Shown here: piece after piece, positions 1 to 19,553 of the stretch | Numbering within the stretch: the first letter of the stretch is position 1 | Layout of the letters: each line of letters opens with the position of its first letter | Source of the DNA: Thioclava dalianensis | GTDB taxonomy: Bacteria; Pseudomonadota; Alphaproteobacteria; Rhodobacterales; Rhodobacteraceae | DNA: 37,557 bases | Reading direction: 5' to 3' | NCBI RefSeq assembly: GCF_000715505.1 | Contig: NZ_JHEH01000028.1 | Coordinates: forward strand, 1-37,557 | Notes under the pieces: model-generated | The model's database searches: none | Told to the model about the DNA's origin: nothing | What the model saw: the letters and a program-made list of their open reading frames with translations, nothing else | Translations under genes and position numbers: made by a program

Positions 1-430
1 GTTGCTGAAAACCTCTGGCACCCAAACTTGCGGATCACATCGAGTACCCGCGCTTCGTAGGCAGCGTGTCCGATCAAGCGACACAAGTCGGACGCGTGGA
101 ACTGGCGGTTCGCAGTTGGTGCGGCTTGCATCTGTCTCAGCAATTCGCGCTCTTTGGGATCCGTTATTGGTCTCGCGGGCGGCTTGACCGCGGGACAAGT
201 TGGAGTTCCCCACGAATTTCGCCATCGGCGCATGAAGCCAAGCAGGAAGCCGGCCGGCACCCTGCCGTTGCCTCGGGACCGGTTGAAGGCAAGGAAGCGA
301 TCCCAGATGACCTGGGTGTCGATGTTCCAGCAGGGCAACGTGGCCTTCGCTGCTTTGATGAGCTCCGCCCAACTTGTCTGAAAAACGTTCGAACTCGTGG
401 TGATATCGATCAGCCCTGAGAAGATAGTTT
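1..430 (-). pseudogene. C-terminal part of a split helix-turn-helix plasmid protein
   Basis: The minus strand is open from about 430 to the left edge, in a frame different from that of the N-terminal half at 410-874. It encodes a continuation containing WNIDTQVIWDRF, then a basic stretch (FMRRWRN) and a region rich in Glu, Leu and Arg that runs off the window. The frame has no start codon of its own near the junction, so it is read here as the displaced C-terminal half of the upstream gene. Removing one 80 bp repeat unit joins both halves into one uninterrupted frame. The function is not recognised beyond a probable DNA-binding plasmid maintenance or replication-associated protein. Confidence 0.6.
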
Positions 431-510
431 CGCTTTGATGAGCTCTGCCCAACTGGTCTGAAAAACGTTCGAACTCGCGGTGATATCGATCAGCCCTGAG
501 AAGATAGTTT
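352..510. repeat. Imperfect tandem duplication, period 80 bp
   Basis: Positions 352-430 and 432-510 are the same 79 bp apart from 3 substitutions, with one base between them. The period of 80 is not a multiple of three, so the duplication shifts the reading frame of the minus-strand helix-turn-helix gene and creates its early stop. Deleting one unit restores the frame exactly: the codon starting at 439 maps onto the codon starting at 359. Confidence 0.9.
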
Positions 511-874
511 TGTTATTATTATCTCTAGATAGTGATGTGTCGTCTTCACCTGACACGAGATCATGGGGTTCACTCTCCTTGTCGAAGGCGGAAAACCGAA
601 AGATCCAGGGCGCGAACTTGCCATTCGGCTTCGCCCGCTCGAGCTGCAACTCCGACGTCTCAAGTTCGCTCAAAAGAACCGAAAGATATTGTCGTGAAAC
701 ACCCATCCTCTCCGCTAGGGCAGAGAGGGTGAAGGCTGCCGTTCCGCGCGACAAACCGTTGTAGCCATCCTTCCAGGCGATGGCATCGAGGATGAGGGTA
801 GCAAGCTTGTGCGCTGCAACAGAGAGATTTGTCTGCGTGATCCGTCGCAGGATCAGGCCGGTCGTAGGTTCCAT
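410..874 (-). pseudogene. Helix-turn-helix protein, truncated N-terminal part
   Basis: This is 154 residues from the ATG at 874, which follows a good ribosome binding site (AAGGAGA). Residues near 45-75 (AFTLSALAERMGVSRQYLSV) form a clear helix-turn-helix. An acidic and Asn-rich linker follows. The frame ends in KAKLSSQG and a stop at 410 only because it runs into the second copy of an 80 bp tandem duplication. The natural continuation lies in another frame at 1-430. The architecture suggests a plasmid-borne DNA-binding protein, possibly a replication or partition regulator, but the family was not identified. It is called a pseudogene because of the frameshift; a functional truncated regulator cannot be excluded, since the helix-turn-helix is intact. 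Confidence 0.6.
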
Positions 875-970
875 GGTCGAGGTCTCCTTGGAGAACCGAC
901 GCCATGTCGTGAGACAACAACATTCTTGCCAGCAAAACAACTTTGCTGGTTGCAGGTGTTTTAGCGGTGC

Positions 971-1003
971 GCTAGGAAACTCTTGTTCACGGAGTTTTCT
1001 AGC
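971..1003. promoter_or_regulatory. Imperfect palindrome upstream of the helix-turn-helix gene
   Basis: Arms at 971-982 and 992-1003 are complementary over 12 bp with one mismatch, around a 9 nt centre. The site lies about 100 bp upstream of the helix-turn-helix start at 874, in a gene-free interval (875-1110). It could be an autoregulatory operator, an origin-associated site or a hairpin; the sequence does not decide between these. Confidence 0.35.
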
Positions 1004-1081
1004 ACGGCGTCAGGCTTCACGGTCTGGCGTCGTCTCCTTTTCGGGGGTTTTGCACAGCCTTACGTGCGGGGTTGAGATGAC

Positions 1082-1102
1082 GCGCGCGGCAAAACCGCGC
1101 GC
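1082..1102. terminator. GC-rich hairpin downstream of the secreted-protein gene
   Basis: Arms GCGCGCGG (1082-1089) and CCGCGCGC (1095-1102) pair perfectly around the loop CAAAA. The hairpin sits 8 bp beyond the stop of the minus-strand gene ending at 1111, in the right place for transcription termination. No convincing U tract follows on that strand, so the call is tentative. Confidence 0.4.
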
Positions 1103-1110
1103 AGATTTTG

Positions 1111-1764
1111 TCAGTAGCGAACTTCTTCAGAACCATAGTTCCCGGCGTGATCACGCCAGTCGACGAAGACGGAACGGTAGAAGTAGCTGCCACATCCATT
1201 CGGGATGCTCAGGCCGGATGCGGCTGGCACCTGGCCCACGGTGGATCTTGTCCATCGGTAGTCGCCCTGCACGCCGTAGGACCCCAATCGCGTCGAGTCG
1301 CTGCGATTGCAGTCGCCATCTCGGTTTTCATGCTGGCGGTACTGGATGTGATAGACCCGTATGCTGCGCACGAAATCAAAGGCGTCGCCTGAGATGTCGA
1401 TGTCAGCTTGCTCATCTGCTTGGACGTGAACAAGGGGTATCGGAGTCGATTCCTGCGGTTCGGGCGGATCGCGGAACGTGGTGTCATTAAGGCGTTCCAT
1501 AGGCGACATCGGGCTGGGATCGTTGAACGACACACCCATCGGACACCGCCAGATTTGTAAGGGCGGCTCGATCGGCCATGGTGTGATCCGCCGAATGAAG
1601 ACCGCTCTGGCATGCGCGCAGGGCGCGGAGGCAGGCCAGCCGCCCGCAAGGCAGAGGAGGATTGCACAGTCGACCTGATAGGCTTGAGCCGGACCTGACG
1701 AGGCCATTAGTCCGGATATGGTTAGTGCCGTGGCTGTTGCCACGCTGTGGATCACGTGCTTCAT
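1111..1764 (-). CDS. Secreted conjugation-type hypothetical protein
   Basis: The ATG at 1764 is preferred because it opens a clear signal peptide (MKHVIHSVATATALTISGLM, cleavage near the AQA before Tyr) and follows GATGGAG. The predicted product is 217 residues. Just after the signal lies a Cys-containing block (VDCAILLCLAGGWPAS, a further Cys, then FIRRITPWPIEPPLQIW and CPM). Its spacing resembles TrbM-like proteins of plasmid transfer systems. The remainder is less distinctive and ends rich in Tyr. The family relation is inferred from this Cys-rich core and from the plasmid context; no function is assigned. It probably acts in the periplasm. Confidence 0.55.
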   Translation of the reverse strand: MKHVIHSVATATALTISGLMASSGPAQAYQVDCAILLCLAGGWPASAPCAHARAVFIRRITPWPIEPPLQIWRCPMGVSFNDPSPMSPMERLNDTTFRDPPEPQESTPIPLVHVQADEQADIDISGDAFDFVRSIRVYHIQYRQHENRDGDCNRSDSTRLGSYGVQGDYRWTRSTVGQVPAASGLSIPNGCGSYFYRSVFVDWRDHAGNYGSEEVRY

Positions 1765-2237
1765 GATGCCGACTCCATCTATAATGGTGCAGCGATACGA
1801 AACAACATTAATGATAGCAAGAAGATTTGATTGATGGTTGCTTGCGACTGTTCGCTTGTGTCGCTTGACCGCTTCCAAGATCTGACGCCGGTTCTGGCTG
1901 CTTCTGCGTCTTGAAAGTGGCCAAAATTGCGGACCCCTTTCACGTTAGCTGCTAAACAAACGTCTGTTACAAAGGGGAAATTGGGTGTTCCAATGTGGCC
2001 GCGAAAGTGGTCACGGAAGGACAGATCGAATGAGCCCTCCAAACCGCGTGGCGCAGCGCTCGTGGCCTCGGGAAGGGCTGTATCGGGAAACTGCCGGGCC
2101 CGGCTCTCCGCATGGAATCCGGGATCAGAAGGGCGGGAGCAGCCAGCGAGCCGATTTGGGGCCCAAGTTGGGATCGAGCATGAGCTTGAATATCTATGTC
2201 AGTATCTGATACGATTGAGCATGGATAGGAGAGTCTG
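1765..2237. other. Intergenic region without a supported gene
   Basis: No reading frame here has convincing coding character. A minus-strand frame at 1779-2042 and plus-strand frames near 1927-2238 look like chance or remnant frames. The part around 1910-2030 has two short near-repeats beginning GTGGCC and could be residue of a mobile element, but no ends or transposase domain can be defined. The last 60 bp probably hold the promoter of the toxin-antitoxin operon. Confidence 0.4.
2202..2212. promoter_or_regulatory. Candidate ParD operator
   Basis: GTATC-T-GATAC is a perfect inverted repeat 25 bp upstream of the parD start codon. ParD antitoxins are known to repress their own operon through a ribbon-helix-helix domain binding such sites. 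The assignment rests on position and symmetry only. Confidence 0.35.
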
Positions 2238-2553
2238 ATGCCAAACGTCCACCTGACCGAACCGATGCAGAAATATGTGCAGGCGCAGATCGAGTCCGGC
2301 GCCTACGCCAATCTGAGCGAAGTCGTGCGCGCCGGCGTCAGGAGGCTGATGGAGAAGGATGGCGCCCGGCAGTTCTATTCCCTCAAGGCCGACCTAGAGG
2401 AAGCAGCCTCCGAGGATGCTGATGGAGAAGGACGGCGCGCGGCAGTTCTACGCCCTAAAGGCCGACCTCGAGATGGCAGCCACCCTGGCCGAAAATGGGG
2501 ATTTCGCCGAGTTCGATGCTCATGCCTTCGAACCGGATGCGTTTGATCGCTGA
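2238..2553 (+). pseudogene. parD: ParD-type antitoxin, frameshifted by a 73 bp duplication
   Basis: The start at 2238 follows AGGAGAG. Residues 1-50 match the ParD ribbon-helix-helix region: VHLTEPMQKYVQ, then GAYANLSEVVRAGVRRLMEK. A tandem duplication then shifts the frame, and the original C-terminus (LMEKDGARQFYALKADLEM through FEPDAFDR, stop at 2551-2553) is left in another frame. Removing one copy restores an 80-residue protein, the usual ParD length. As it stands the frame from 2238 runs on to 2546 with an unrelated tail. In this family the C-terminus binds and neutralises the toxin, so neutralisation is probably lost while DNA binding could remain. Confidence 0.75.
2346..2491. repeat. 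Imperfect tandem duplication, period 73 bp
   Basis: The sequence beginning CTGATGGAGAAGGA at 2346 restarts at 2419. The copies agree closely for about 54 bp, with scattered substitutions, and then more loosely. The period is 1 modulo 3, so the duplication frameshifts parD. Confidence 0.85.
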
Positions 2554-2558
2554 CCCGC

Positions 2559-2684
2559 ATGACCATTCGACTTTCCGGTCGGGCCAGAGCCGACCTTGAA
2601 GAGATCCGTGCCTACACCGTACATGACTATTCGGCTTTCCGGTCGGGCCAGGGCCGACCTTGAAGAGATCCGTGCCTACACCGT
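2559..2684. repeat. Imperfect tandem duplication of the parE start, offset 64 bp
   Basis: ATG plus the following 59 bp at 2559-2620 recur at 2623-2684 with 3 substitutions. The first copy runs out of frame into a stop after about 34 codons. The second copy continues in frame into the parE body. The gene therefore has two start regions in tandem. Confidence 0.85.
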
Positions 2685-3243
2685 CGAAACTTGGGGTAGG
2701 GATCAATGGCTCGTCTATTACCGCCAGTTGGTTAACGCCTTCGAGCAGATCACCGGGGATCCCGACCGGGGTCGGGACAGGAGTCTCTTCGTTCCGGGGA
2801 TGCGGTCCGTCAACTGCCAACGTCACGTGATCTTCTACAAGCGGCTAGATGCCGCGGATGGGGCGGCAGTCATCCTGCGCATCGTGCACCAGCGCCGCAA
2901 CATGCCCGCGCTGAACTTGGGGCAGGGACCAATGGCTCGTCTATTACCGCCAGTTGGTCACCGCCTTCGAGCGGATCACTGGCGATCCCGACCGGGGCCG
3001 GGACAGGAGTCTCTTTGTCCCGGGGATGCGGTCGGTCAATTGCCAGCGTCACGTGATCTTCTACAAGCGGCTCGATGCGGCGGATGGCGCGGCAGTCATC
3101 CTGCGTATCGTGCACCAGCGCCGCAACATGCCCGCGCTCGTCTACTACGAGGGTCTCGACGGCGGTTAAGCTCTTGCGTTTCCTCATTTCAATGGCTCGA
3201 CCAGTCTTCCATAGTCTTCACTGACCATCTCGACGGCGGTTAA
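2623..3243 (+). pseudogene. parE: ParE/RelE-superfamily toxin, disrupted by duplications
   Basis: From the ATG at 2623 the frame encodes a nearly complete ParE: IRLSGRARADLEEIRAYT, LVYYRQLVNAFEQI, a Pro- and Gly-rich turn, then HVIFYKR and ILRIVHQRRNMPAL. ParE toxins target DNA gyrase. The last residues are replaced because a 226 bp duplication shifts the frame, producing an unrelated tail of about 110 residues to 3243. The second copy holds the proper C-terminus (ALVYYEGLDGG, stop at 3168-3170). Removing the duplications gives a toxin of about 106 residues directly after parD. Both partners are altered, so the module is probably inactive. A toxin that kept activity without its antitoxin would be lethal. 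Confidence 0.75.
2688..3136. repeat. Imperfect tandem duplication, period 226 bp
   Basis: Most of parE, from AACTTGGGG at 2688, is repeated from 2914. About 17 substitutions separate the copies over roughly 225 bp (7 to 8 percent), far too many for a recent slippage event. The period is 1 modulo 3 and shifts the frame. Confidence 0.9.
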
Positions 3244-3300
3244 GCCCATGCGTTTGCTCAGTCCAATAGCTCGACCAGTCTTCCATAGTCTTCACTGACC
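3155..3300. repeat. Imperfect tandem duplication, period 74 bp
   Basis: CTCGACGGCGGTTAAG occurs at 3155-3170 and again at 3229-3244, and the similarity continues to about 3300 with 6 substitutions. The unit covers the parE stop region and the 3-prime end of the convergent minus-strand gene at 3258-3416. Confidence 0.85.
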
Positions 3301-3416
3301 TCGCGCGCCTCCTGAAGCGCGCGGGCGCGCTCGGCATCAAGACAGCGGAAGTACTCCTGGATGTCGGCGATGTAGCTCTCGAAATCAGCACGCAGCAGAT
3401 CGGCATAGGCACGCAT
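3258..3416 (-). CDS. Small hypothetical protein
   Basis: This 52-residue frame begins at the ATG at 3416 (MRAYADLLRADFES) and is highly charged, probably helical throughout, with no signal or membrane segment. The family was not recognised. It converges with parE. A diverged copy of its middle part lies upstream at about 3430-3535 on the same strand: DFE, then FADV, a TAG stop, and DYFRCLNAGR, against DFESYIADIQEYFRCLDAER here. A longer frame to 3485 exists only because it reads into that degenerate copy. Coding status is supported by the conserved amino-acid pattern between copies. Confidence 0.4.
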   Translation of the reverse strand: MRAYADLLRADFESYIADIQEYFRCLDAERARALQEAREVSEDYGRLVELLD

Positions 3417-3429
3417 GTCTTCTTGCGAC

Positions 3430-3535
3430 TGAGGCAAGAACGGTCGTTCGGGTGAAACGCGCGTTGGCGCCCGGCATTGAGGCAACGGAAGTAGTCCTAC
3501 ACATCGGCAAAGTGGATCTCAAAATCGCTCAAACC
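3430..3535 (-). pseudogene. Degenerate second copy of the small hypothetical gene
   Basis: On the minus strand, DFEIHFADV, a TAG stop and DYFRCLNAGRQRAF align with the product of 3258-3416. A CAG to TAG change interrupts it where the intact copy has Gln. This is another partial duplication in the same 3 kb region, more diverged than the others. From here to 3600 no gene is visible. Confidence 0.5.
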
Positions 3536-3600
3536 CGACCAATTTGAATGTTGGAAGCGCTAAGAATTACTGCTTCGATACCTGGTCATCACGCGAGCAC

Positions 3601-4923
3601 TCAATTCCCATTGTGATCATGTTGATGTGGCTCGGTTTTTGTGCGCTGAAGAAACCAATGCTCAAAGATCAATACACAAGCCATGATCGCGAATGCGACC
3701 ACTACAATCATTGGATCGCTCTGCCACTTTAGTGAAGCGAATACGACAAGCACGATCGCGTCGAGACCGATTGCAGTCAACATGATCCATCCATGCGCAG
3801 AAAGCTCGGCCCTAAGGTTTCGGTACACTCCCCAGTGAATAACCATATCCATTACAAGGTAAAAGAAGGCCCCCATAGAAGCTATTCGGCTAACGTCGAA
3901 GAGAATGGTCAGCAGGCTCGCAATCACTACTGTGTAGATCAGTGTATGGTCGCGGACTCCGCCTGACATCCCAAAATGACTGTGCGGGATCAATTTCATC
4001 TCTGTCAGCATTGCCAACATACGAGATACCGCAAAGATGCTGGCAATCACGCCTGATGCAGTTGCGATCAAAGCGAGCGCGACGGTCAGATAGAAGCCCG
4101 TTTCCCCAAGGGACGGTGCTGCCGCTTCCGCGAGCGCATAGTCTTTTGCTTCGACGATCTTGCCAAGCGGCAAGCTGCTTCCCACCGCAAATGCTACCAA
4201 GAGATACACCACTACGCAGACCGCCAATGAAATGATGATCGCGCGTCCGATGTTGCGGTGTGGGTCCACTATCTCGGCGCCGCTGTTGGTGATTGTCGTG
4301 AACCCTTTGAATGCCAGAATTGCCAACGCTGTGGCACCAACAAATCCACTGAGACCCTGTGAAGCTGTTCCATCTCCTGTTGTGCCAAAAGTAAACCCGC
4401 CGGCCCAAAGCGCAGAGATCCCAAACAGAGTGATACCGCCAACTTTCAGTACGGCGAGCAATTGGGAAATCCAGCCTACAGAGCGGTTGCCCGAGATGTT
4501 GACGACATAGGCTGCGATAATGAGAGCAACGCCTATTGCCGGAACCAGTAAGCCATCTGGTGCAATGCCCAGTCCACGGAGCAAATAGTTTGCGAAGGTC
4601 CGTGCGACTAGGCTTTCGTTAATGACCATTGACAGAGCCATAAGCAAAGCCGCTGCAGCGGCTACGGCGGTTGGTCCATAGGCCTTTTGCAGGATCATTC
4701 CAATTCCGCCAGCTGACGGGTAGGCATTGGACATTCTTATGTAAGTGTAAGCGCTGAAGGCTGTAACGATGGCTCCAACGATGAACACAAGTGGAAAGGT
4801 AGGGCCGGCCAGTTCCGCAATTTGGCCTGTGAGTGCCAGAATTCCGGCGCCAATCATGACACCAGTCCCCATGGCGACGGCATCCCAAAGAGAAATGCTG
4901 CCCGCTTTATAGTCGCTATTCAT
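3601..4923 (-). CDS. APC-superfamily amino acid permease
   Basis: This 440-residue protein is almost entirely hydrophobic, with about twelve predicted membrane segments. The first carries the APC glycine motif GTGVMIGAGI at residues 19-28, the unwound helix that binds substrate in this superfamily. It ends in a short cytosolic tail with several His (HQHDHN). The start overlaps the stop of the TVP38-like gene by 8 bp (ATGAATAG), so translation is probably coupled. It is the last gene of the operon that begins with the EF-hand protein. The substrate is unknown; an amino acid or amine is usual for the family. A role in supplying a metal-binding or thiol amino acid under copper stress is only a guess from context. 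Confidence 0.85.
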   Translation of the reverse strand: MNSDYKAGSISLWDAVAMGTGVMIGAGILALTGQIAELAGPTFPLVFIVGAIVTAFSAYTYIRMSNAYPSAGGIGMILQKAYGPTAVAAAAALLMALSMVINESLVARTFANYLLRGLGIAPDGLLVPAIGVALIIAAYVVNISGNRSVGWISQLLAVLKVGGITLFGISALWAGGFTFGTTGDGTASQGLSGFVGATALAILAFKGFTTITNSGAEIVDPHRNIGRAIIISLAVCVVVYLLVAFAVGSSLPLGKIVEAKDYALAEAAAPSLGETGFYLTVALALIATASGVIASIFAVSRMLAMLTEMKLIPHSHFGMSGGVRDHTLIYTVVIASLLTILFDVSRIASMGAFFYLVMDMVIHWGVYRNLRAELSAHGWIMLTAIGLDAIVLVVFASLKWQSDPMIVVVAFAIMACVLIFEHWFLQRTKTEPHQHDHNGN

Positions 4924-5608
4924 CGTCGATCTGCTTTCTATTTTTGAGGGTCAAAAAGACAAAAGGCAGTGCTGTCACAACCCCAAGTCCTATCGTGATC
5001 CATTCAGCCGTTCCCCAATCCCCTGACATGGCCACAGCTCCAAAATGGGCAAGAACAAAACTCGCCGGCAAAATCCCGGCAAAAGTTGCCAGCATGAAGC
5101 GCCATAGATGAAGTTGGCTCAAGCCCGCAACATAGCTGATTGCATCGAAAGAAACGAATGGAAGCAGGCGGGACGCAAACACTGATAACATCAGAGCCTT
5201 TTGCGACCCCAACAGCCCGAACTCTGAATATTTACCCAAAAAACGCCGAACTGTGCTTCGACCGAGTTTTCGCGCGATGACAAATGCGATTGTAGCACCG
5301 AGCTCCGAGCCTATGGCTACGTAGGCGGCTCCGAGATAGTGGCCAAATGCAGCCCCGGCGGCTAGTGCGATTGGTGCGCTCGGTATGGGGCTTGCGACAA
5401 TCGCGAGGGCCATGAGTGCAATAACCGCGAGGGGGCCAACGGCTCCGGCATTTTCAATATGGCGCTGCACTTCAGCCTGTGAAAAGGCGACCCCAAGATT
5501 GCTCAGAGAAACCGTGCCCGAAAAAAGGCCGAAAACTGCAAGAGACAGAACAGTTGCTATCGCCAAACAACCAATCAGGCGACCATATCCCCATGCTTGC
5601 ACGATCAT
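4916..5608 (-). CDS. TVP38/TMEM64 family membrane protein
   Basis: The 230-residue integral membrane protein has an N-terminal membrane segment, a periplasmic stretch, then the conserved VTT (SNARE-associated) domain. Signature parts are GSELGATIAFVIARKLGR and SRLLPFVSFDAISYVAGLS, with the Pro and Phe-Asp of the re-entrant region. Family members are membrane proteins linked to lipid scrambling or metal and redox stress, but the molecular role of bacterial copies is not settled. It overlaps the multicopper oxidase stop by 4 bp (ATGA) and the permease start by 8 bp, so it sits in a tightly coupled operon. TVP38-like genes often occur beside mercury or copper genes. Confidence 0.85.
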   Translation of the reverse strand: MIVQAWGYGRLIGCLAIATVLSLAVFGLFSGTVSLSNLGVAFSQAEVQRHIENAGAVGPLAVIALMALAIVASPIPSAPIALAAGAAFGHYLGAAYVAIGSELGATIAFVIARKLGRSTVRRFLGKYSEFGLLGSQKALMLSVFASRLLPFVSFDAISYVAGLSQLHLWRFMLATFAGILPASFVLAHFGAVAMSGDWGTAEWITIGLGVVTALPFVFLTLKNRKQIDDE

Positions 5609-7053
5609 GTGACCGTGAACTGCGCCATCATTCCTCCATCTTCGTGTTCAAGGATGTGACAGTGATACATGAAGGGATTGGCGCGATCTGCCGTCTGCTC
5701 AAAGCTGACCAGGATATCGACACGGCCATTTACGAGCACGGTATCCTTCCAGCCAGAATTTTGTATGCTTGGTTTCTTTCCGTTTTCGGCGAGCACCTGA
5801 AACCTCACGCCATGAACATGAAACGGGTGCATCATCATGTTTGAGGAGACTTGCCAAATCTCGGTCGCCCCCTTCGAAAGAGACAAGTCTATCCTCCCCA
5901 TGTCGAAGGACTGCCCATTGATCGCAAACCGATCATTCGACCTACGCATCATCATGCCCATCCCCATTGGCATATCGAGTGTGATCTGACGTGTATTGAC
6001 TGATCGGGCCTCACTGTCAGGCAGGACGCCGCCCAAGTCGGCGGGTATTTCCAGAATGCGGGCAGGAAGTCTCACATCCACACCAAAGGGTAGAACTACG
6101 AAGCTCCCCCCAGCAGTGCTCGCGCCGCCCATCATCCCACCCATCATCTGATTGGGATTTGCAGAGGATACCAGCGTGCCAGCCTCTCCTCCCGAAAAAT
6201 CGACGAGGACTTCGTATCGTTCGCCGGGAGCGATCACGAGGGACTCAATTGCGACAGGTTGATTAAGATAGCCACTGTCCGTCGCGATGAGGTGCATCTC
6301 GCGACGGTCAGAAAACGATAGGGGATAAATCCTCGCGTTCGAGCCGTTGAGCAAGCGCAAACGGACAATACCGCGAGGGACGACAGCCTGGGTGCCTAGC
6401 TGACCGTTAACAAGAATGACATTTCCCATGAAACCCATCATCTGATCTGGCATAGACAGGCCATAATCGATGCGGCCCTGCCGGTCGAACCGGCGGTCTT
6501 GCAGAACCAATGTCAAATCATCGACGCCGTATGAGATCGGGAGACCCCGAGCATCGTCCCGACCGTCATCAACGTGGATCACACCGGCCAATCCCCTTTG
6601 AACTTGTCGTCCGGTGTCGCCATGAACGTGCGAGTGGTACCAAAGAGTAGCGGGTGGTTGTGTCAGATCCAGTTCGGGAGACCAAGTCGTGCCCGGTTCA
6701 ATCGTCTGGTGTGGGCCGCCGTCAACTTCGCCGGGTATCAGCATACCGTGCCAGTGCACCGAGATTTTCTCTGACAGCGTATTGTCGATCTGTGCTTGCG
6801 TCGAAGCTCCTGCGGGAAGACGTAGTGTAGGCCCCAAAAAGGATTGGTTGAACCCCCAGGTTTCGCCGCCGCCCAGTCCTGTAAAATCGGTCTTGCCCTT
6901 TTGGGCAGTCAGACGGAAATGCCGATCGCGGGTTGCGTCGAGCAATGGTGGCATAGCCAACGCCCTGACACTCTCCTGTGCGATGGCCGCCAGCGGACCT
7001 GTGGCAAACGGCAGGCCAGCCAAGCCGGCGATGAAGGCTCTACGATTGGTCAT
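5605..7053 (-). CDS. Periplasmic multicopper oxidase (CueO/CopA-like)
   Basis: This 482-residue protein starts with a twin-arginine signal (TNRRAFIAGLAGL), consistent with export of a folded copper enzyme. All four copper ligand motifs are present: HWHG at 100-103, H140-S-H142-V-H144, HPFHVH at 409-414 and HCHILEH at 464-470 with Met475 as likely axial type 1 ligand. Two Met-rich stretches (NQMMGGMMGG and MPMGMGMMM near residue 365) resemble Cu(I)-binding segments of CueO. The likely role is oxidation of toxic Cu(I) to Cu(II) with O2. It lies 15 bp after the rhodanese gene and overlaps the TVP38-like gene. A SufI-like structural role is less likely because every copper ligand is conserved. 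Confidence 0.9.
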   Translation of the reverse strand: MTNRRAFIAGLAGLPFATGPLAAIAQESVRALAMPPLLDATRDRHFRLTAQKGKTDFTGLGGGETWGFNQSFLGPTLRLPAGASTQAQIDNTLSEKISVHWHGMLIPGEVDGGPHQTIEPGTTWSPELDLTQPPATLWYHSHVHGDTGRQVQRGLAGVIHVDDGRDDARGLPISYGVDDLTLVLQDRRFDRQGRIDYGLSMPDQMMGFMGNVILVNGQLGTQAVVPRGIVRLRLLNGSNARIYPLSFSDRREMHLIATDSGYLNQPVAIESLVIAPGERYEVLVDFSGGEAGTLVSSANPNQMMGGMMGGASTAGGSFVVLPFGVDVRLPARILEIPADLGGVLPDSEARSVNTRQITLDMPMGMGMMMRRSNDRFAINGQSFDMGRIDLSLSKGATEIWQVSSNMMMHPFHVHGVRFQVLAENGKKPSIQNSGWKDTVLVNGRVDILVSFEQTADRANPFMYHCHILEHEDGGMMAQFTVT

Positions 7054-7068
7054 GGTATAGCTTGTGTC

Positions 7069-7530
7069 TCACGCTAGCTCACTTGGGAGGGCGGCCAGTG
7101 CGGCTTCTCTTGTTACTGTCGGCAGACCTTGCTCGATCCAGCCGGATCTCCCCGGGGCGCCAAGCATCCCGCCTACGGCGTCAACAAAGCCGGCAGCTTT
7201 CGCTTCACGCAACTTGCTCATTACGAGACCTGAGCGATGGCCGGTCCGACAAATCAGGGCGACCGGGCGTCCCGCAGCAAGATCGCGGGCGGCGAAGAGG
7301 CGCTCCCCGAACCGCGGATGGGTCATGTCGATTGGCCACGCCCCCTCCGCGACGCCGGTATCTTGCCATTCCTCGGGTCTGCGGATGTCCACAAGCCTTG
7401 CCAAATCGCTTTTCAGCGCATCATGGAGAGTATCGAGCGCCCATACGTCATGGTTGTCAGCCCAAGCTGGCGAATAGGCAAGCAAGGTGCTCGATGCGAA
7501 CAGGCCAAAAGTTTGACGGCGGCTCAGCAT
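7069..7530 (-). CDS. Exported rhodanese-domain protein
   Basis: This 153-residue protein carries an N-terminal export signal with a twin Arg (SRRQTFGLFASSTLLAY, AWA before the mature part). One rhodanese domain follows, with DIRRPEEW at 48-55 and the active-site loop starting at Cys94 (ICRTGHRSG). Rhodaneses carry a persulfide on this Cys and move sulfane sulfur or bind thiophilic metals. A periplasmic copy next to a multicopper oxidase suggests handling of sulfur or Cu(I) in the envelope, but that is inference. It lies between the DUF302 gene (21 bp) and the oxidase gene (15 bp) and is probably co-transcribed with both. Confidence 0.85.
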   Translation of the reverse strand: MLSRRQTFGLFASSTLLAYSPAWADNHDVWALDTLHDALKSDLARLVDIRRPEEWQDTGVAEGAWPIDMTHPRFGERLFAARDLAAGRPVALICRTGHRSGLVMSKLREAKAAGFVDAVGGMLGAPGRSGWIEQGLPTVTREAALAALPSELA

Positions 7531-7551
7531 GGTCTGCCTCCTCAGTTTAGT

Positions 7552-7938
7552 TTATGCGTTGTCAACCGCAGATCGCAGCATATCGCGCACCTGCGCGGCG
7601 ACTTCGTGCAGCTTCTCATTCTCGACAGCGGCCATCGAAGCCACAGGATCAACAGCGCTGATTTCAGTGCCGTTTTCGACCGTCCGCAAGATCACGTTGC
7701 AAGGCAGCATCGATCCTATACGGGGCTCCAGCCCAATGGCCTCCCATGCCATATGAGGGTTGCACGCACCCAGAATGCGGTATCCATCCATGTCGCGGTC
7801 AATCTTTTTCTTCATTGTTGCCTGGACGTCGATTTCGGTCAGTACACCAAATCCCTTTTCTTTCAGGGCTTCGCGCAGGCGCATCTCCGCATCATCAATC
7901 GCCGTATTGGGCAGATGTCTGTTGTAGGTATAACTCAT
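7552..7938 (-). CDS. DUF302 family protein
   Basis: This 128-residue protein has no evident signal peptide. It fits the DUF302 fold: an N-terminal segment of the type LREALKEKGFGVLTEIDV, then GACNPHMAWEAI and a LPCNVIL strand. Cys59 and Cys80 could bind metal or form a disulfide; both positions lie in the conserved core. DUF302 proteins are small and of unknown biochemical function, often encoded with copper or sulfur genes. GAGAGGG precedes the ATG at 7938. It is the second gene of the operon, 89 bp after the EF-hand gene. Confidence 0.8.
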   Translation of the reverse strand: MSYTYNRHLPNTAIDDAEMRLREALKEKGFGVLTEIDVQATMKKKIDRDMDGYRILGACNPHMAWEAIGLEPRIGSMLPCNVILRTVENGTEISAVDPVASMAAVENEKLHEVAAQVRDMLRSAVDNA

Positions 7939-8027
7939 TTTGAGCCCTCTCGATCTTGTTCAGGCAAACCCAAAGCGCCGAACCGTTGACGGGCTTGCCT
8001 GAATGGGGAAATTCTGAACGACGGGGT

Positions 8028-8651
8028 TCAGTTGTCTTGGTCCGTCATCATTCCGGGATTTGCTGTCATACCCTGTGCCATGTTGTCGGCAGGGGCGACT
8101 ATTTCGCCTTGAGAAATCTGGCCGTCGCCATCAGCATCGAGCATCTGGAAACGATCGACCATGGTCTCGCGCATCGCCTTGGCGTGAAGCGACGCGAATT
8201 CGTCAATCGAGAGCGTGCCGTTACCGTCGGCGTCATAGTCCGACAGCATCGACTGAAGGCCCTCATGCGCCTCTTCGGGAGACACTGCGCCGTTTCCATC
8301 CATATCGAACATTGACATCATGTTGCCCCCCATCATCGGGAACATACCTTGACCGGTTGTGCTTGGTCCCATGATGCTGCCGTTTCCGCTCATCATGCCC
8401 GAATGCATTTGCATCATCATGCGCATCATGCCGTGCATCATCTGAAGATGCTCGGCCATCTGACTGGGATCCATCATGCCGCCACCCATCAGCATTCCGG
8501 GCCCGCCCGTCCCTGCCATCGGTTGAGCAAGTACATTGGGAGAGACGCTTTCAGCGCCCGCAGCTTGGTGATGGCTGTCATCGGCGAGCGCAGCACCTGC
8601 TGTGAGAACGGCAACCAGAAGACCGGTAGAAATTTTTGTTGAGTAGGACAT
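8028..8651 (-). CDS. Met-rich periplasmic EF-hand protein
   Basis: The start at 8651 is chosen because it opens a signal peptide (STKISTGLLVAVLTAGAALA) after AGGAAAGG; upstream in-frame codons are not needed. Of 207 residues, 55-115 are extremely rich in Met (for example MMHGMMRMMMQMHSGMM), typical of Cu(I)-binding segments. Three EF-hand loops follow: DMDGNGAVSPEE (116-127), DADGNGTLSIDE (140-151) and DADGDGQISQGE (172-183). The protein probably binds Cu(I) and Ca(II) in the periplasm, either as a copper sink or a carrier for the oxidase encoded downstream. It is the first gene of the minus-strand operon, facing the two-component system across 168 bp. Confidence 0.85.
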   Translation of the reverse strand: MSYSTKISTGLLVAVLTAGAALADDSHHQAAGAESVSPNVLAQPMAGTGGPGMLMGGGMMDPSQMAEHLQMMHGMMRMMMQMHSGMMSGNGSIMGPSTTGQGMFPMMGGNMMSMFDMDGNGAVSPEEAHEGLQSMLSDYDADGNGTLSIDEFASLHAKAMRETMVDRFQMLDADGDGQISQGEIVAPADNMAQGMTANPGMMTDQDN

Positions 8652-8727
8652 TTTGAAGCCTTTCCTTCTTTTGACCTCATACAACTTGGCATCAAACATT
8701 TGAATGTAAGGACGTACACCCGTGGAT

Positions 8728-8765
8728 TTGTATCCGTCTGTCGCAATGGACAGGGGCTGATACAA
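8728..8765. promoter_or_regulatory. Nested palindrome between the divergent EF-hand and regulator genes
   Basis: TTGTATC (8728-8734) and GATACAA (8759-8765) form perfect outer arms. Inside them CTGTC (8738-8742) and GACAG (8749-8753) form inner arms. A separate short palindrome ACATT-TG-AATGT is at 8696-8707. The interval separates the EF-hand operon from the response regulator gene, so these are plausible binding sites for the response regulator. TACAAT at 8761-8766 could be a -10 element for the plus-strand genes. Confidence 0.35.
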
Positions 8766-8819
8766 TTGGCGACAAAAAGGAACCTGACCGTCTGATTTCC
8801 AATGCTTTAGAAGGGCCCC

Positions 8820-9542
8820 ATGCAACACGCGCCACATATTCTCGTCGTGGATGACCATGAACAGATCCGGAAAAGTGTAACCCGCTATCTGGAAAAGAAT
8901 GGCATGCGAGCAACCGCTGCCAAGGATGCGGCGGAGATGGACGCGAAGCTGGCTGTCGGAAGCTTCGACCTACTGGTCCTGGATATCATGATGCCTGGCG
9001 AGGATGGCCTTTCCGTTTGCCAACGTCTGTCAAGCGAAGGGCGACTGCCGATCATCATGTTGACCGCGCTCGGTGAAGATGCGGACCGTATTGTCGGTTT
9101 GGAGATCGGTGCGGACGATTATCTTCCCAAGCCGTTTAATCCACGCGAACTCCTTGCGAGGATCAAAGCCGTCCTGCGAAGAAGCGAGCACAAAGAAGCC
9201 TTCACCGGATCTCTGAGCGGCCGCAAAGTCCGCTTTGCACACCTTACCTTGGATGTAGACCGGCAGGTGCTTCTCGACGACGCGGGACAAGAGACCGCTC
9301 TTACGGTCGCAGAATTCAAACTGCTGACGGTCCTTCTGGAGCGCCCTCGGATGGTGTTGAGCCGCGATCAGTTGCTAGATCTTTCTCAGGGCATTTCCGC
9401 TGGTCCGTTGGACAGGAAAATTGACAACCAGATTTCGCGCCTTCGGCGAAAGCTCGAGCCCGACATTCTCCGTCCACGTATTATCAAGACGATCAGAAGC
9501 GGCGGCTACTGCCTGTCGGTCGACGTCGAGGTGTCCGAATGA
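8820..9542 (+). CDS. OmpR/PhoB-family response regulator
   Basis: This is a 240-residue regulator. The receiver domain (1-120) has the acidic pair Asp11-Asp12, phosphoacceptor Asp55 (VLDIMMPGEDG), Thr82 and Lys104. A winged-helix effector domain follows, with LTVAEFKLLTVLLE and a recognition region ending RRKLEPD and TIRSGGYCL. It pairs with the sensor kinase whose start overlaps its stop by 4 bp. The position between an EF-hand/oxidase operon and a cytochrome maturation operon suggests it controls one or both. Copper responsiveness is likely from the context but is not shown by the protein itself. Confidence 0.92.
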   Translation: MQHAPHILVVDDHEQIRKSVTRYLEKNGMRATAAKDAAEMDAKLAVGSFDLLVLDIMMPGEDGLSVCQRLSSEGRLPIIMLTALGEDADRIVGLEIGADDYLPKPFNPRELLARIKAVLRRSEHKEAFTGSLSGRKVRFAHLTLDVDRQVLLDDAGQETALTVAEFKLLTVLLERPRMVLSRDQLLDLSQGISAGPLDRKIDNQISRLRRKLEPDILRPRIIKTIRSGGYCLSVDVEVSE

Positions 9543-10924
9543 TCTGGCGGCTCCTACGATCTCTCCGGATCCAACTCGTTCTTCTCATCATTATCGCGTT
9601 GGGGATCGCACAGTTTGTCAGCCTGTGGCTCTTCGCCGATGAACGAAGCCTCGCCATACGGGCTGCTCTTGGGTTTGAGGCAGCTGGACGAGCGGCAAAT
9701 GTTGCGCGCTTGATTGAAGAGGCACCCGCTGACCTGCGCCCATCAATTATCCGCGCGGCGAACTCGCCCCTTGTTCGCTTTGACCTCGGGACGAAGCCGC
9801 TTGTGCAACATAGCGACCATTCGGATGGCGGGTTGGTTGAAACCCGCGTCCGCGCACTCCTGAACGACAGCTACAGTCGCGACATTCGTGTAGAGCTTCA
9901 CCAGATCCAAGGCGCGATCCTGCCGCTACCGAACCTGTCGCACGAAATGACCGAGATGCACTTGGCCATGATGCGAGGTGAACTGTCCGCTATCGAGATG
10001 AACCTTTCAATTTCGATCGCCGGTGGCCAGTGGTTGAACGTAAGTACGCGCTTTGAGCGTCCGCCGATCCAGTGGCCGCTTTATTCCATGCTGACATTTG
10101 GTCTGACGGCAATGGCCCTGTTGGTCGCAGTGAGCTGGTTTGTCATGACCGGACTGCTGGGCCCTCTGCGGCGATTGGCCGGGGCGTCGGAACGATTGGG
10201 GCGTGGAGAAGACATAGACGCGTTGCCAGAACGGGGACCCCAGGAGGTTCGGGAGCTGACCGCTGGTTTCAACCGCATGCAGGACAGGCTGACACGGTTC
10301 GTTGCCGACCGAACGAGGGTTCTGGCGGCCCTTGGACATGATCTTCGATCTCCGCTTACCGCAATGAGAGTACATTCAGAAATGGTAGAGGAAGACGAAA
10401 CCCGAGAGAGTCTCGTCGCAACCGTCGAAGAAATGCAGTCGATGGTGGAAGCAACCCTTACCTTCGCGAAAGGTCTCTCAGGGAACGAACCAATGCAGGA
10501 TGTTGACCTGCAATCGTTCCTAGAAGCTCTGCGGGGGGATATGGTCGTACCGTTTGTGCTCTCTGACGGCCCCGAAGTCACGGTTCGATTGCGCCCCAAT
10601 GCCATTCGACGGGCATTGCGAAACGTGATCGAGAACGCGGTGCGCTACGGCGGGTCCGCAACGCTGGGCTGGATATCAGCCGATGGGGAAATAGAAATTT
10701 CCGTCACTGACAGAGGGCCGGGGATTCCAACCGCAGAATTGGAACGCGTATTTGACCCATTCTTCAGGCTTGAAGAAAGCCGATCTCTGGAAACCGGCGG
10801 GCATGGGCTGGGCCTGTCGATCGCAAGGTCCATTCTTCGCGCGCAGGGTGGGGAGATCAGTCTGGCGAACCACCCGGACGGCGGGCTTATCGCGACAATT
10901 CGATTGCCAGTTGCTGAAACATGA
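9539..10924 (+). CDS. Membrane sensor histidine kinase
   Basis: The 461-residue kinase has two membrane segments (about 12-32 and 183-205) enclosing a periplasmic sensor of about 150 residues. A HAMP linker and the phosphorylation site His267 (GHDLRSPLTAMR) follow. The ATPase domain shows the N box NVIENAVRYGG, the G1 box DRGPGIP and the G2 box GGHGLGLSIA. Near the end of the sensor, residues 134-154 concentrate His and Met (SHEMTEMHLAMM), a plausible copper-sensing patch as in other copper kinases. It overlaps the response regulator (ATGA) and forms a two-component system with it. The stimulus is inferred, not shown. Confidence 0.92.
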   Translation: MIWRLLRSLRIQLVLLIIIALGIAQFVSLWLFADERSLAIRAALGFEAAGRAANVARLIEEAPADLRPSIIRAANSPLVRFDLGTKPLVQHSDHSDGGLVETRVRALLNDSYSRDIRVELHQIQGAILPLPNLSHEMTEMHLAMMRGELSAIEMNLSISIAGGQWLNVSTRFERPPIQWPLYSMLTFGLTAMALLVAVSWFVMTGLLGPLRRLAGASERLGRGEDIDALPERGPQEVRELTAGFNRMQDRLTRFVADRTRVLAALGHDLRSPLTAMRVHSEMVEEDETRESLVATVEEMQSMVEATLTFAKGLSGNEPMQDVDLQSFLEALRGDMVVPFVLSDGPEVTVRLRPNAIRRALRNVIENAVRYGGSATLGWISADGEIEISVTDRGPGIPTAELERVFDPFFRLEESRSLETGGHGLGLSIARSILRAQGGEISLANHPDGGLIATIRLPVAET

Positions 10925-10946
10925 AATGACAGAAAAGGAAACCGAC

Positions 10947-11246
10947 ATGCTTAGACTTACCAACACAACCGCAGCATTCACGCTGTTCGCGACGGCCGCC
11001 ATGGCGGACCCAGGCGGAGATTATTACGGCCACATGTGGGGCGGTGGATTTGGAATGCTGGGAGGGCTGATGATGATCGTGTTCTGGGGCGTGATTATTG
11101 CGCTGATATTCTTCGCCGTTCGCTGGTTCAGCGAAAAGGACCGTGTTTCCGGGTCTAGTGCTCAGGACATTCTCAGGGATCGCTTCGCGCGCGGTGAGAT
11201 TGATGAAGACGAGTATCGCAAGCGCAAGGCCGCTTTAGACGACTGA
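10947..11246 (+). CDS. Small SHOCT-domain membrane protein
   Basis: This is 99 residues from the ATG at 10947, preferred over the ATG at 10926 because AAGGAAA precedes it and a signal-like segment begins there. A hydrophobic stretch (about 38-60, rich in Gly, Met and Trp) makes one or two membrane segments. The C-terminal 30 residues (DILRDRFARGEIDEDEYRKR) are a standard SHOCT motif, a short helical tail found on many small membrane proteins, sometimes beside metal-response genes. The first part holds His, Met and Trp (YYGHMWGGGFGM). It follows the kinase by 22 bp. The function is unknown. Confidence 0.75.
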   Translation: MLRLTNTTAAFTLFATAAMADPGGDYYGHMWGGGFGMLGGLMMIVFWGVIIALIFFAVRWFSEKDRVSGSSAQDILRDRFARGEIDEDEYRKRKAALDD

Positions 11247-11293
11247 GAAACTGATCACCAGTCGATCCCACTGCCAAAGATCATGAGGCTCCT

Positions 11294-13294
11294 ATGACCC
11301 CGGAACTCGGCCATTTTGTGCTGGCCCTCGCATTGGCGTTGGCCATCGTCCAATCGACTATTCCTCTTTTCGGCGCGGCCCGGGGCAATCTTCTCTGGAT
11401 GCGTTCAGCCCGGTCAACTGCTTTTGGGCAGGTCGTCTTCGTCGGACTTGCCTTTGCCGCCTTGATGCGCGCTTTTGTTGTCTCTGATTTCACTGTTTTG
11501 AACGTCGCGAACAATTCGCATTCGCTGAAACCAATGATCTTCAAAGTCGCGGCGACTTGGGGAAGTCATGAAGGATCGTTGCTGCTCTGGGTCTTCATTC
11601 TGACCATCTTCGGTGCTGCGGTTGCTGCTTTCGGCTCAAACCTACCGGAAACACTTCGAGCGCGAACTTTGGCAATGCAGGCATGGATCAGCGTCGGGTT
11701 TCTGTCCTTCCTTCTCTTTACATCCAATCCGTTCGAGCGCGTCTTTCCTCCGCCGCTTGATGGCGCTGACCTCAATCCTCTGCTCCAGGATATCGGCCTC
11801 GCGATGCACCCGCCGCTGCTGTATTTTGGATATGTCGGCTTCTCGATCGTCTTTTCGTTTGCAGCCGCAGCCTTGATCGAGGGACGGATCGACACAGCCT
11901 GGGCAAGATGGGTTCGACCCTGGACACTGGCCGCGTGGATCAGCCTGACTGCGGGGATAGCTCTCGGATCGTGGTGGGCATATTACGAACTGGGTTGGGG
12001 TGGATGGTGGTTCTGGGACCCGGTTGAAAATGTCAGTTTTATGCCCTGGCTTCTCGGGACAGCACTTCTCCATTCGGCGATTGTCACTGAAAAGCGTGAC
12101 GCGTTCAAAAGCTGGACAATCCTGCTCGCGATCTTGACGTTTTCGCTGTCACTCCTCGGCACATTTGTGGTTCGGTCTGGCTTGCTGACCTCTGTGCATG
12201 CTTTTGCCGTGGATCCGGAGCGAGGCCTATACATTCTTGGCCTGCTTGCGATTTCAATTGGTGGCTCACTTGCACTCTATGCGTGGCGGGCGCCAATGAT
12301 GGAAGGTGGCGGGTTGTTTAAGCCGATTAGTCGAGAGGCAGGGTTGTTGCTAAACAACCTGATCCTGGCTACAGCGACTGGCACGGTTCTGTTCGGTACG
12401 CTTTATCCGCTGTTTCTCGAAGCCGTTTCTGGTGACAAGATTTCCGTCGGTCCGCCGTTCTTCAATGGCGCGTTCGTACCAATGATGCTCCCCTTGGTTT
12501 TTGTCATGGGTCTCGGGCCGTTTTTGTCCTGGAAACGAGCCGATCTGGTCGGAGTGCTTCAACGTGTCCGCTTCGTGGTGGTGCTGGCGGTGCTGGCAAC
12601 GCTCGCAATTTGGTATTTCGCCAAAGGCGGGCCCGTGTTGGCATATCTTTCGATCCTCATCGCGCTTTGGTTGTTTTTTGCTTCCTTACGTGAATGGGCG
12701 CTGCGGGTTCGTTTGTTCGAGGTTCCGCTCCAGGAAAGCATCCGGCGTGCCCGCAATTTGCCCCGCGCGGCGCATGGAATGACGCTCGCTCATGCGGGAG
12801 TTGCGGTCTTGATGATCGGCATGATTGGCTCTTCGGTTTGGAAATCTGAAGAGATCGCATTTGTAGAGCCCGGCACGAGTGTCAACATTGCGGGATTTGA
12901 TGTCACATTTGAAGGTGTGCAGCGCGTTCGTGGCCCGAACTATATTGCGGATCAGGGAACCCTGCGCGTCGAAAGGGGCGGCTCTTTCGTGACGGCTCTC
13001 AAACCTGAGCGGCGCAGCTATCCGGTCGCACAAAGTACGACAACAGAATCGGCGATACGGTCAACCCTGGCGGGAGACCTATACGCTTCGATCACGGAAC
13101 CCTCTCTGGACAAAGCCGAAGAGAGCGGTGCCTGGACTCTGCGTATTCTCTATGAGCCATTCGTCGGCTTGCTTTGGTTGGGTGCGGCCATGCTTGTCAT
13201 AGGCGGCAGTCTGTCCTTGTCCGATCGCCGCTTCCGTGTCGGGGCACCCCAAAGCTCCAAGGCACGATCCACGAAACCGGTCGCAGCGGAGTGA
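11294..13294 (+). CDS. ccmF: Cytochrome c heme lyase subunit CcmF
   Basis: This is a 666-residue polytopic membrane protein of the CcmF/CycK family. The tryptophan-rich heme-handling motif is clear at about 234-246 (WGGWWFWDPVENVSFMPW). Conserved His lie in MHPPLLY and LLHSAIVTEKRDAF, and the C-terminal periplasmic domain is present, so it has the usual length. CcmF works with CcmH and CcmI to attach heme covalently to apocytochrome c in the periplasm. It heads ccmF-ccmG-ccmH-ccmI with gaps of 3 bp, 1 bp and a 4 bp overlap. The genes for heme delivery (ccmABCDE) are absent from the window, so this looks like a supplementary ligation module relying on a set encoded elsewhere. Confidence 0.95.
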   Translation: MTPELGHFVLALALALAIVQSTIPLFGAARGNLLWMRSARSTAFGQVVFVGLAFAALMRAFVVSDFTVLNVANNSHSLKPMIFKVAATWGSHEGSLLLWVFILTIFGAAVAAFGSNLPETLRARTLAMQAWISVGFLSFLLFTSNPFERVFPPPLDGADLNPLLQDIGLAMHPPLLYFGYVGFSIVFSFAAAALIEGRIDTAWARWVRPWTLAAWISLTAGIALGSWWAYYELGWGGWWFWDPVENVSFMPWLLGTALLHSAIVTEKRDAFKSWTILLAILTFSLSLLGTFVVRSGLLTSVHAFAVDPERGLYILGLLAISIGGSLALYAWRAPMMEGGGLFKPISREAGLLLNNLILATATGTVLFGTLYPLFLEAVSGDKISVGPPFFNGAFVPMMLPLVFVMGLGPFLSWKRADLVGVLQRVRFVVVLAVLATLAIWYFAKGGPVLAYLSILIALWLFFASLREWALRVRLFEVPLQESIRRARNLPRAAHGMTLAHAGVAVLMIGMIGSSVWKSEEIAFVEPGTSVNIAGFDVTFEGVQRVRGPNYIADQGTLRVERGGSFVTALKPERRSYPVAQSTTTESAIRSTLAGDLYASITEPSLDKAEESGAWTLRILYEPFVGLLWLGAAMLVIGGSLSLSDRRFRVGAPQSSKARSTKPVAAE

Positions 13295-13297
13295 GCA

Positions 13298-13858
13298 ATG
13301 AAACGAGCTGTAGCGATTATTCCCTTGGTACTGGCAGTGATTGTCGGCGGATTTTTCTTGTGGGGCCTGAATCCCAATCGTGACCCAAGCGAGATTCCTT
13401 CGGTTCTCATTTCTCAGCCAGCTCCCTCGTTCAATCTCGGGCCGGTGCCGGGTCTTGATGTACAGGGACTGTCTCGGGAAAACCTGCTCGGAAACCCAAC
13501 GCCAGTCGTCGTCAATGTCTTCGCTTCCTGGTGCGTTCCCTGTCGTGCCGAACACGCGGTTCTGAGCGCTTTGGTTGAGCGCGATGGCGTGCGTTTGTTC
13601 GGGATCAACTACAAGGATCAACCCGCAGACGCGGTCAATTGGCTTCGAAATCTCGGGAACCCGTACGAACGTATTGGCTCGGATCTGTCAGGTCGTGCCG
13701 GGATCGAGTGGGGGATTTCGGGTGTGCCCGAGACATTCATTGTCGGAGGCGATGGAACGGTGCTCTACCGATACGTCGGCCCGATCGTCGGTGAAGAGGC
13801 TGTATCAGCCTTTCGCCAAGCTCTCCGACAAGCGGGTGTGTTAGAGGAGAGGAGCTGA
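13298..13858 (+). CDS. ccmG: Thiol-disulfide protein CcmG/DsbE
   Basis: This 186-residue periplasmic thioredoxin-like protein is anchored by an N-terminal membrane segment (about 4-24). The redox motif CVPC lies at 79-82 in NVFASWCVPCRAEH, and a cis-proline strand (GVPETFIV) faces it. CcmG keeps the Cys of apocytochrome heme motifs reduced before ligation. It starts 3 bp after ccmF and ends 1 bp before ccmH, so it is plainly part of the same transcript. Its presence fits the many c-type cytochromes encoded further right in this window. Confidence 0.94.
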   Translation: MKRAVAIIPLVLAVIVGGFFLWGLNPNRDPSEIPSVLISQPAPSFNLGPVPGLDVQGLSRENLLGNPTPVVVNVFASWCVPCRAEHAVLSALVERDGVRLFGINYKDQPADAVNWLRNLGNPYERIGSDLSGRAGIEWGISGVPETFIVGGDGTVLYRYVGPIVGEEAVSAFRQALRQAGVLEERS

Positions 13859-13859
13859 C

Positions 13860-14330
13860 ATGCGTAGTTTCTTCCTTGTGTTGGCACTCATCATGCCAAT
13901 GTCTGCGCAGGCTGTTGAGCCCGACGAAATCCTCTCCGATCCAATCCTCGAGGCTCGGGCACGGGAGGTTTCCAGGCAGCTTCGCTGCGTAGTTTGCCAA
14001 AATCAGGATATTGACAGCTCGAACGCCGGCGTTGCGCGCGACCTACGACTTTTGGTCCGGGAACGGTTGGTTGCGGGTGACACGAACGAAGATGCAATTG
14101 CTTTCATCCAAGCGAGATACGGCGACTACGTTCTACTGAAGCCTCCGTTTAAACCCGAGACCTACGCTCTCTGGTTTACCCCCCCACTCCTTGGGCTCTT
14201 GGCTCTGGGGATCGGTGGCGGCATCCTGATGGGCTCTCGAAAAAGAAAAAAAATCGCAGACCTGAGCGATGACGAGGAGGCCGAGGTCGCACGCATTTTC
14301 ACTTCATCCAGCGAAGGGGACCACCGATGA
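13860..14330 (+). CDS. ccmH: Cytochrome c maturation protein CcmH
   Basis: The 156-residue protein has a signal peptide (SFFLVLALIMPMSAQA) and the invariant LRCVVCQNQ motif (Cys43 and Cys46), which exchanges disulfides with apocytochrome c and CcmG. A single C-terminal membrane helix follows at about 105-125, then a short acidic tail. This is the short CycL-type CcmH, without the fused TPR domain, which is encoded separately by the next gene. Its stop overlaps the ccmI start (ATGA). RBS is the strong GAGGAGAGGAG at the end of ccmG. Confidence 0.94.
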   Translation: MRSFFLVLALIMPMSAQAVEPDEILSDPILEARAREVSRQLRCVVCQNQDIDSSNAGVARDLRLLVRERLVAGDTNEDAIAFIQARYGDYVLLKPPFKPETYALWFTPPLLGLLALGIGGGILMGSRKRKKIADLSDDEEAEVARIFTSSSEGDHR

Positions 14331-15490: not shown

Positions 15491-15581
15491 CCCGCGGAAG
15501 CTTCACTCGCGATGAACAAACCATGAGAGAGCACGAACGGCGTATGTGCACGATCCGACCTCACCCGAATGACTAGAAAGA

Positions 15582-16493
15582 ATGTCCATGCCTTTGTCCG
15601 CACTTCCGTTCCCAAATATCGGGCCGGATATATTTTCGGTTGAGATCGGCACGTTTACGTTGACTCTCCGCTGGTATGCGTTGGCCTATATCATCGGCCT
15701 TCTCGTCGGCTGGAGAATTTGTGTTGCCACGGTCAAACGCGCCGCTCTGTGGCCTGCATCGGGCGCCCCGCTAACACCGCGCCAAATTGAGGATCTTTTG
15801 ACCTGGATTATCATCGGGGTGATCGTTGGCGGGCGGTTAGGGTTCGTGATGTTCTATCAGCGCGGGTTCTATCTTGCCAATCCGTTAGAAATTCTGAAGG
15901 TCTGGCAAGGGGGAATGTCATTTCATGGTGGGTTTGCTGGAGTAACCATTGCCGCGCTTGTTTATGGCATCCGTCAGCGTATGCCGCTCCTGAGCATGGC
16001 TGACCTTCTCGCTCTGGCAACGCCTCCGGGCTTGTTCTTGGGCCGGATCGCAAATTTCATAAACAATGAACTATGGGGCCGCCCATCGGACATGCCCTGG
16101 GCCGTCATATTTCCCGGTGACGCAGCGCAATCATGCCCGGGAATAACCGACATTTGCGCACGGCATCCTTCGCAACTGTACGAAGCCCTTTTGGAAGGCC
16201 TGTTGCTTGGCTTCGCTCTCCTATTCCTTGCGTGGCGGCGCGGATGGCTTAGGACACCAGGGGCAATTTGCGGGCTCTTCCTGGCCGGATATGGTTTTGC
16301 GAGAAGTTTTGTAGAGTTGTTTCGCCAGCCCGACGCTCAATTCGCAGACGTGAACAATCCGATTGGGTATGTTGTGCAGTTTGGTGACTGGGGGCTTACG
16401 ATGGGGCAAGTCCTTTCCTTGCCGATGTTAGCCGCGGGATTTGGATTACTTTGGCTGGCGCAGAAGCGGTCCGCCATAGGATCGGCATCTTAG
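15582..16493 (+). CDS. lgt: Prolipoprotein diacylglyceryl transferase
   Basis: This 303-residue inner-membrane enzyme transfers diacylglycerol from phosphatidylglycerol to the lipobox Cys of prolipoproteins. Family motifs are complete: [30 protein letters not shown], the signature [15 protein letters not shown] at about 154-168, and [12 protein letters not shown]. An extra chromosomal-type lgt in a copper island is notable. The island encodes at least one lipoprotein (27322-27570) that could be a substrate. It lies 91 bp after ccmI and probably shares its transcript. An ATG two codons downstream (15588) is an equally possible start. Confidence 0.93.
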
Positions 16494-19515: not shown

Positions 19516-19553
19516 TCGGGGATCCTTTCCCGTATTTCTAGCTCATTGCCTCA

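Follow-up and report, generated by a model that had tools for sequence, protein, structure and literature searches.

The left end of contig NZ_JHEH01000028.1 of Thioclava dalianensis carries a cluster of direct duplications that interrupt a parD-parE plasmid backbone. The question is whether these duplications exist in a cell or were made when the record was assembled. The analysis covered the whole stretch of 37,557 nucleotides, referred to here as the window.

Duplicated units and the two alleles

Five two-copy direct repeats lie at window positions 352-3300, as called by both TRF and a repeat finder in a scan of the 37.6 kb. Their offsets of 80, 73, 64, 226 and 74 confirm those given in the first-pass annotation, and the fainter sixth duplication suspected there is also present. 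The units are as follows.

Unit 1: called at 352-431/432-511; copies 351-430/431-510; offset 80; identity 95%, difference 5.0%
Unit 2: called at 2340-2412/2413-2485; left copy 2339-2411, right copy from 2412; offset 73; identity 84%, difference 16.4%
Unit 3: called at 2558-2620/2622-2684; copies 2557-2620/2621-2684; offset 64; identity 95%, difference 6.2%
Unit 4: called at 2688-2912/2914-3138; copies 2687-2912/2913-3138; offset 226; identity 92%, difference 8.0%
Unit 5: called at 3154-3226/3228-3300; copies 3153-3226/3227-3300; offset 74; identity 92%, difference 9.5%
Unit 6 (diverged): B-type sequence 3304-3452, then A-type sequence from 3453; net backward jump 149

The alignable part of unit 6 (3313-3386 against 3453-3526) is 74% alike at an offset of 140, after a 9-base indel. 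The measured differences of the five pairs revise the range of 3 to 8% given earlier. Elsewhere the window is clean, as had been claimed: the repeat finder found no further direct-repeat family of at least 40 nt with copies within 2 kb, and TRF adds just two further rows, both short (29949 and 31021). By the gene positions of an annotated relative (L009), unit 1 lies within a hypothetical gene and unit 2 within parD. The next three all involve parE: unit 3 is at its start, unit 4 in its interior, and unit 5 spans its stop. Minus-strand ORFs 410-940 and 1111-1878 gave zero Pfam matches.

The source of the copies was traced with two natural alleles of the region. Allele A is the type found on contig 3 of G001, the nearest genome (locus L016), where the same region occurs without duplications. 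Allele B is the Phaeovulum vinaykumarii type (L064, judged the same as G253:C14). The two share a common backbone of about 2.9 kb with 92.2% identity. The window is 99.9-100% identical to G001 contig 3 over 431-2411, 2621-2912 and 3452-25545, and the pieces in between fall to 97.3, 93.3, 94.6 and 78.6%. The same in-between pieces are 97.8-100% identical to allele B, represented by L064 and by Ruegeria pomeroyi SZCCDBG043 (L063); the 97.8% piece is one in which B passes into A in register. The segments, none of which has a strand assigned, are as follows.

1-430: mostly allele B; 6 of 7 discriminating sites are B and site 197 is A; 99.8% to L064, L063, L077, L078 and others; 97.3% to A over 1-446
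431-2411: allele A; 99.9% to G001 contig 3, with mismatches at 2339 and 2344; sites 161 A, 0 B, 1 neither
2412-2620: mostly allele B, parD region; 15 of 16 sites B, site 2523 A; ends 32 nt past the last difference, 2588
2621-2912: allele A, parE region; 22 of 22 sites A; 100% to G001 contig 3; ends 32 nt past the last difference, 2880
2913-3226: allele B, then A in register; 18 B sites up to 3106 and 7 A sites from 3153; 3154-3226 is 100% A; ends 32 nt past the last difference, 3194
3227-3452: allele B, running on into B's own downstream sequence; 3227-3451 is 100% to L064 and L063; 7 of 7 sites in 3227-3300 are B
3453-25545: allele A, undisturbed (heavy-metal/copper island); to G001 contig 3, 100% over 3452-5915, 99.99% over 5916-24415 and 100% over 24416-25545

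Every duplicated pair consists of one A copy and one B copy, in the order B,A; A,B; B,A; A,B; A,B; B,A for units 1-6, with two bases of neither allele in the left copy of unit 2. Aligning left and right copies separately, the check proposed in the first-pass annotation, thus matched them to two distinct known alleles, both site by site and by closest relatives. Alleles also switch while keeping register, at 197/279, near 2523 and in the interval 3106-3153. In the four annotated relatives that carry B's downstream gene, conjugation genes follow beyond it.

Junction geometry and de Bruijn graphs

The six out-of-register switches (430/431, 2411/2412, 2620/2621, 2912/2913, 3226/3227 and 3452/3453) are all blunt backward jumps. 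No microhomology was found at these six junctions, save one ambiguous base at the sixth. First, the right copy starts at an A/B difference in all six units (431, 2412, 2621, 2913, 3227 and 3453, the last being an indel). With sites assumed independent, the chance of six such starts is about 0.078^6 = 2e-7, from the 92.2% identity of A and B. Second, in four of the six units the left copy continues for exactly 32 bases past the last difference (398 to 430, 2588 to 2620, 2880 to 2912 and 3194 to 3226). Third, a reference-free test on the window letters alone gave the same picture: the first base differs in all five fixed-offset pairs, and the tails are 32, 2, 32, 32 and 32. The tails possible in the four fitting units were 0-36, 0-34, 0-46 and 0-35, so that a common value would be expected by chance at about 1.6e-5.

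A bubble branch of a k=33 de Bruijn graph, without its leading 32-base overlap, runs from the first difference to the last difference plus 32 bases. We know of no cellular cause for breakpoints that follow this rule. The spacing of the differences bounds k independently; the largest gap inside a unit is 30 and the smallest flanking gap is 34 (2523 to 2557). Since the difference at 2523, 34 bases ahead of unit 3, was left outside the unit, k is at most 33. When the window's 33-mers (starts 1-3567) were compared with 106 loci, seven runs were absent from them. Six of these runs, 31-32 long, lie exactly across the junctions, and the seventh, of length 33 (2312-2344), lies around the odd bases 2339 and 2344. 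An A/B difference immediately precedes window position 1, which lies 47 bases into the A/B homology; this fits a contig opening at a shared unitig.

A (L016) and B (L064) served as input for strand-specific graphs at 52 k values (15-60, 63, 71, 77, 91, 99 and 127). At k=33 the left copies of units 1, 3, 4 and 5 (four of six) equal, letter for letter, a whole trimmed unitig, from which the overlap of 32 bases has been removed. None of the six did so at any of the 51 remaining values. The starts of the right copies are not specific to 33: they coincide with trimmed-unitig starts in all six units at k=15-34, in five at 35, in four at 36 and in at most one above. Window 1-3452 could be parsed into whole A or B unitigs at k=33 over 3,149 of its 3,452 bases, with joins at 430, 2620, 2912 and 3226. 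Coverage is nearly equal at k=31 and 32 (3,137 and 3,133), and it is the joins, not the coverage, that single out 33; none of the ten other k values tried placed a join on a junction.

These results bear on two other accounts of the record. A misaligned long-read consensus, or reads of the second allele brought in during local gap filling or polishing, would presumably likewise yield A/B alternation and overlaps of read-like length. Such an error predicts neither a common tail nor exact equality with unitigs, and the four exact pieces occur at k=33 only; it was ruled out on the exact k=33 unitigs and is given next to no weight. Given as little weight is a reading in which the isolate truly carries a recombinant plasmid, formed by six joinings of the two alleles at overlapping ends, the agreement with k=33 being a coincidence.

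Two units do not fit the simple rule. The left copy of unit 2 stops 2 nt, not 32, past the last difference, and the two-parent graph misses both unit 2 and unit 6. Third parents were tried singly (57 loci, one of which, L064, is B itself and adds nothing). A unitig end at 2411 was gained with eight of the 57 (L009, L010, L012, L046, L048, L049, L050 and L058), and of the four matches obtained with two parents these same eight keep just one or two. An end at 3451/3452 was gained with L061 and L065; with the latter (Oceanicola sp. S124) the left copy of unit 6 is an exact unitig and the match of unit 4 is lost. The exact left copy of unit 2 was reproduced by none of the 57, many of which break two-parent matches, and no parent set tried reproduces all six units. 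The left copies of units 2 and 6 end at branch points of some third natural alleles, though the two units were not reproduced jointly with the other four. The mixture probably included a third allele or a local variant of A or B.

Within the left copy of unit 2, bases 2339 and 2344 agree with neither allele, and their combination occurs in none of the fetched loci. They possibly come from a third allele in a mixed sample.

Related loci and the plasmid setting

Copy number was examined in 65 of the 106 loci (L009-L016 and L039-L095, some sharing a contig) with a match threshold of 60% of the unit; overlapping G001 loci, L017-L038 and the eleven weakest ParE relatives (L096-L106) made up the remainder. 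Every matching locus has one copy per unit: 50/50, 61/61, 58/58, 63/63 and 52/52 for units 1-5, with no match to these units in 15, 4, 7, 2 and 13 of the 65 loci respectively. A search of IMG/VR with ParE returned no relative. L091 (Thioclava pacifica DSM 10166) is matched to ParE over no more than residues 1-79 of 106 and may be a truncated or diverged copy.

Plasmid records gave a consistent size for the excess sequence. Three have one place covering at least 80% of window 1-6000, each matching in seven pieces: Celeribacter ethanolicus NZ_CP022197 and Aestuarium zhoushanense CP021117 with 5,334 bases each, and Thioclava nitratireducens NZ_CP123975 (H3) with 5,333. The six jumps add up to 80+73+64+226+74+149 = 666, which is exactly the excess of window 1-6000 over the homologous stretch of 5,334 bases in the first two of these records (H1 and H2). 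Among the best plasmid records, H1-H14, the window is matched in 6-8 pieces.

The block is a ParD/ParE toxin-antitoxin backbone of Roseobacter-group plasmids (for example NZ_CP022197, NZ_CP123975 and LR723678), with the same gene order in seven annotated relatives. The window pieces are about 90-100% identical to these, except for 3227-3386, which is 79% identical to the A-type ones. All seven have a parD-like gene and parE without duplications, whereas in the window the genes are interrupted by serial copies. In CP021117 the parD-like gene is annotated as a transcriptional regulator.

A cellular origin was weighed against these data. Co-resident plasmid alleles could have been joined by repeated template switching, or by end joining with backward jumps. 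The pieces do derive from two natural alleles, and the backbone block occurs across many genera, which makes co-residence plausible. We know of no cellular reason for six jumps out of six being backward with no microhomology, for right copies that start at a difference in all six units or for the 32-base tail in four. A genuine duplication should place its junctions in an independent record. The 27-mer across junction 4, one of the six, has no exact match in genome_contigs, the matching loci among the 65 hold no second copy, and H1-H14 match in separate pieces; the source genome may be absent from these collections. In-cell recombination is thus very improbable. The "hotspot of interallelic duplication" proposed at first finds no support for the same reasons: no microhomology, no second copy in the matching relatives among the 65 and an unmatched junction 4. 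A natural duplication hotspot was ruled out by the junction geometry together with the relatives.

Downstream lies a plasmid-borne island. The Pfam scan, which took in 20 of the 146 listed ORFs, identified multicopper oxidases, heavy-metal P-type ATPases, a two-component system and cytochrome c maturation proteins. Among the 20 scanned ORFs no antibiotic-resistance family appeared by name, bar a broad metallo-beta-lactamase fold in the protein at 21982-23367, which also has Beta-Casp and RMMBL domains, as in RNA-processing enzymes.

Two differences from G001 lie further along. At 25541-25545 collinearity with G001 contig 3 ends and resumes on contig 4, with a 5-base overlap. Past that point, the next ORFs on contig 3 have matches to TniQ, TniB and a Mu-like transposase; contig 4 carries an ORF of equal length (549 aa) close to the equivalent position. 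A Tni-type transposon, absent from the window, seems to sit at a place where the island is shared by, or was exchanged between, two G001 replicons. At 28262-28264, G001 contig 4 has 1,315 extra bases between two matches that overlap by 3 bases. This insert is flanked by perfect 27-bp inverted repeats, has ORFs of 299 and 277 aa, and is probably an insertion sequence that the window lacks.

Origin and meaning of the duplications

Four results point together to one reading: the alleles alternate, the jumps run backward and are blunt, four of the six units follow the k=33 geometry, and matching relatives have single copies. The duplication cluster is almost certainly an artefact of assembly, in which two alleles were strung together, and the duplicated copies would not occur in any cell.

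The following mechanism is proposed. Two plasmids sharing the backbone of about 2.9 kb, one with allele A and one with allele B, would have been present in one short-read library; we infer their co-presence from the record. In a k=33 de Bruijn graph, where nodes overlap by 32 bases, the shared block would become a chain of bubbles. At six clusters of differences both branches would have been written in series, each without its leading 32 bases, as if it overlapped its neighbour. Branches written serially would look like tandem duplications with one allele in each copy. At the remaining differences, isolated or clustered, one branch would have been written. A contig-chaining or scaffolding step may have been the agent. 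A point against the artefact model is that many clusters of differences, namely 279-291 and every one in 515-2335, are present as one branch and not doubled. The A and B sequences may come from two plasmids of one strain, from two strains or from a cross-contaminated library.

Of the two explanations offered in the first-pass annotation, an assembly that spliced reads from two strains (or two plasmids) is strongly supported by the two-allele copies and the k=33 breakpoints, and the template-switching hotspot is not supported. False segmental duplication through haplotype mis-assembly is described for diploid vertebrate genomes by Kelley and Salzberg (2010, PMC2864568). The present case differs: two plasmid alleles are involved in a bacterial record, the units are 64-226 bp, and the k-mer signature, a 32-base tail, can be read in the finished sequence.

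Such records seed databases with interrupted genes and false duplications. The signature is a second copy that starts at a difference and a first copy that ends k-1 bases past the last difference. Because it can be read from finished sequence without the reads, it may serve as a cheap filter for genome scans.
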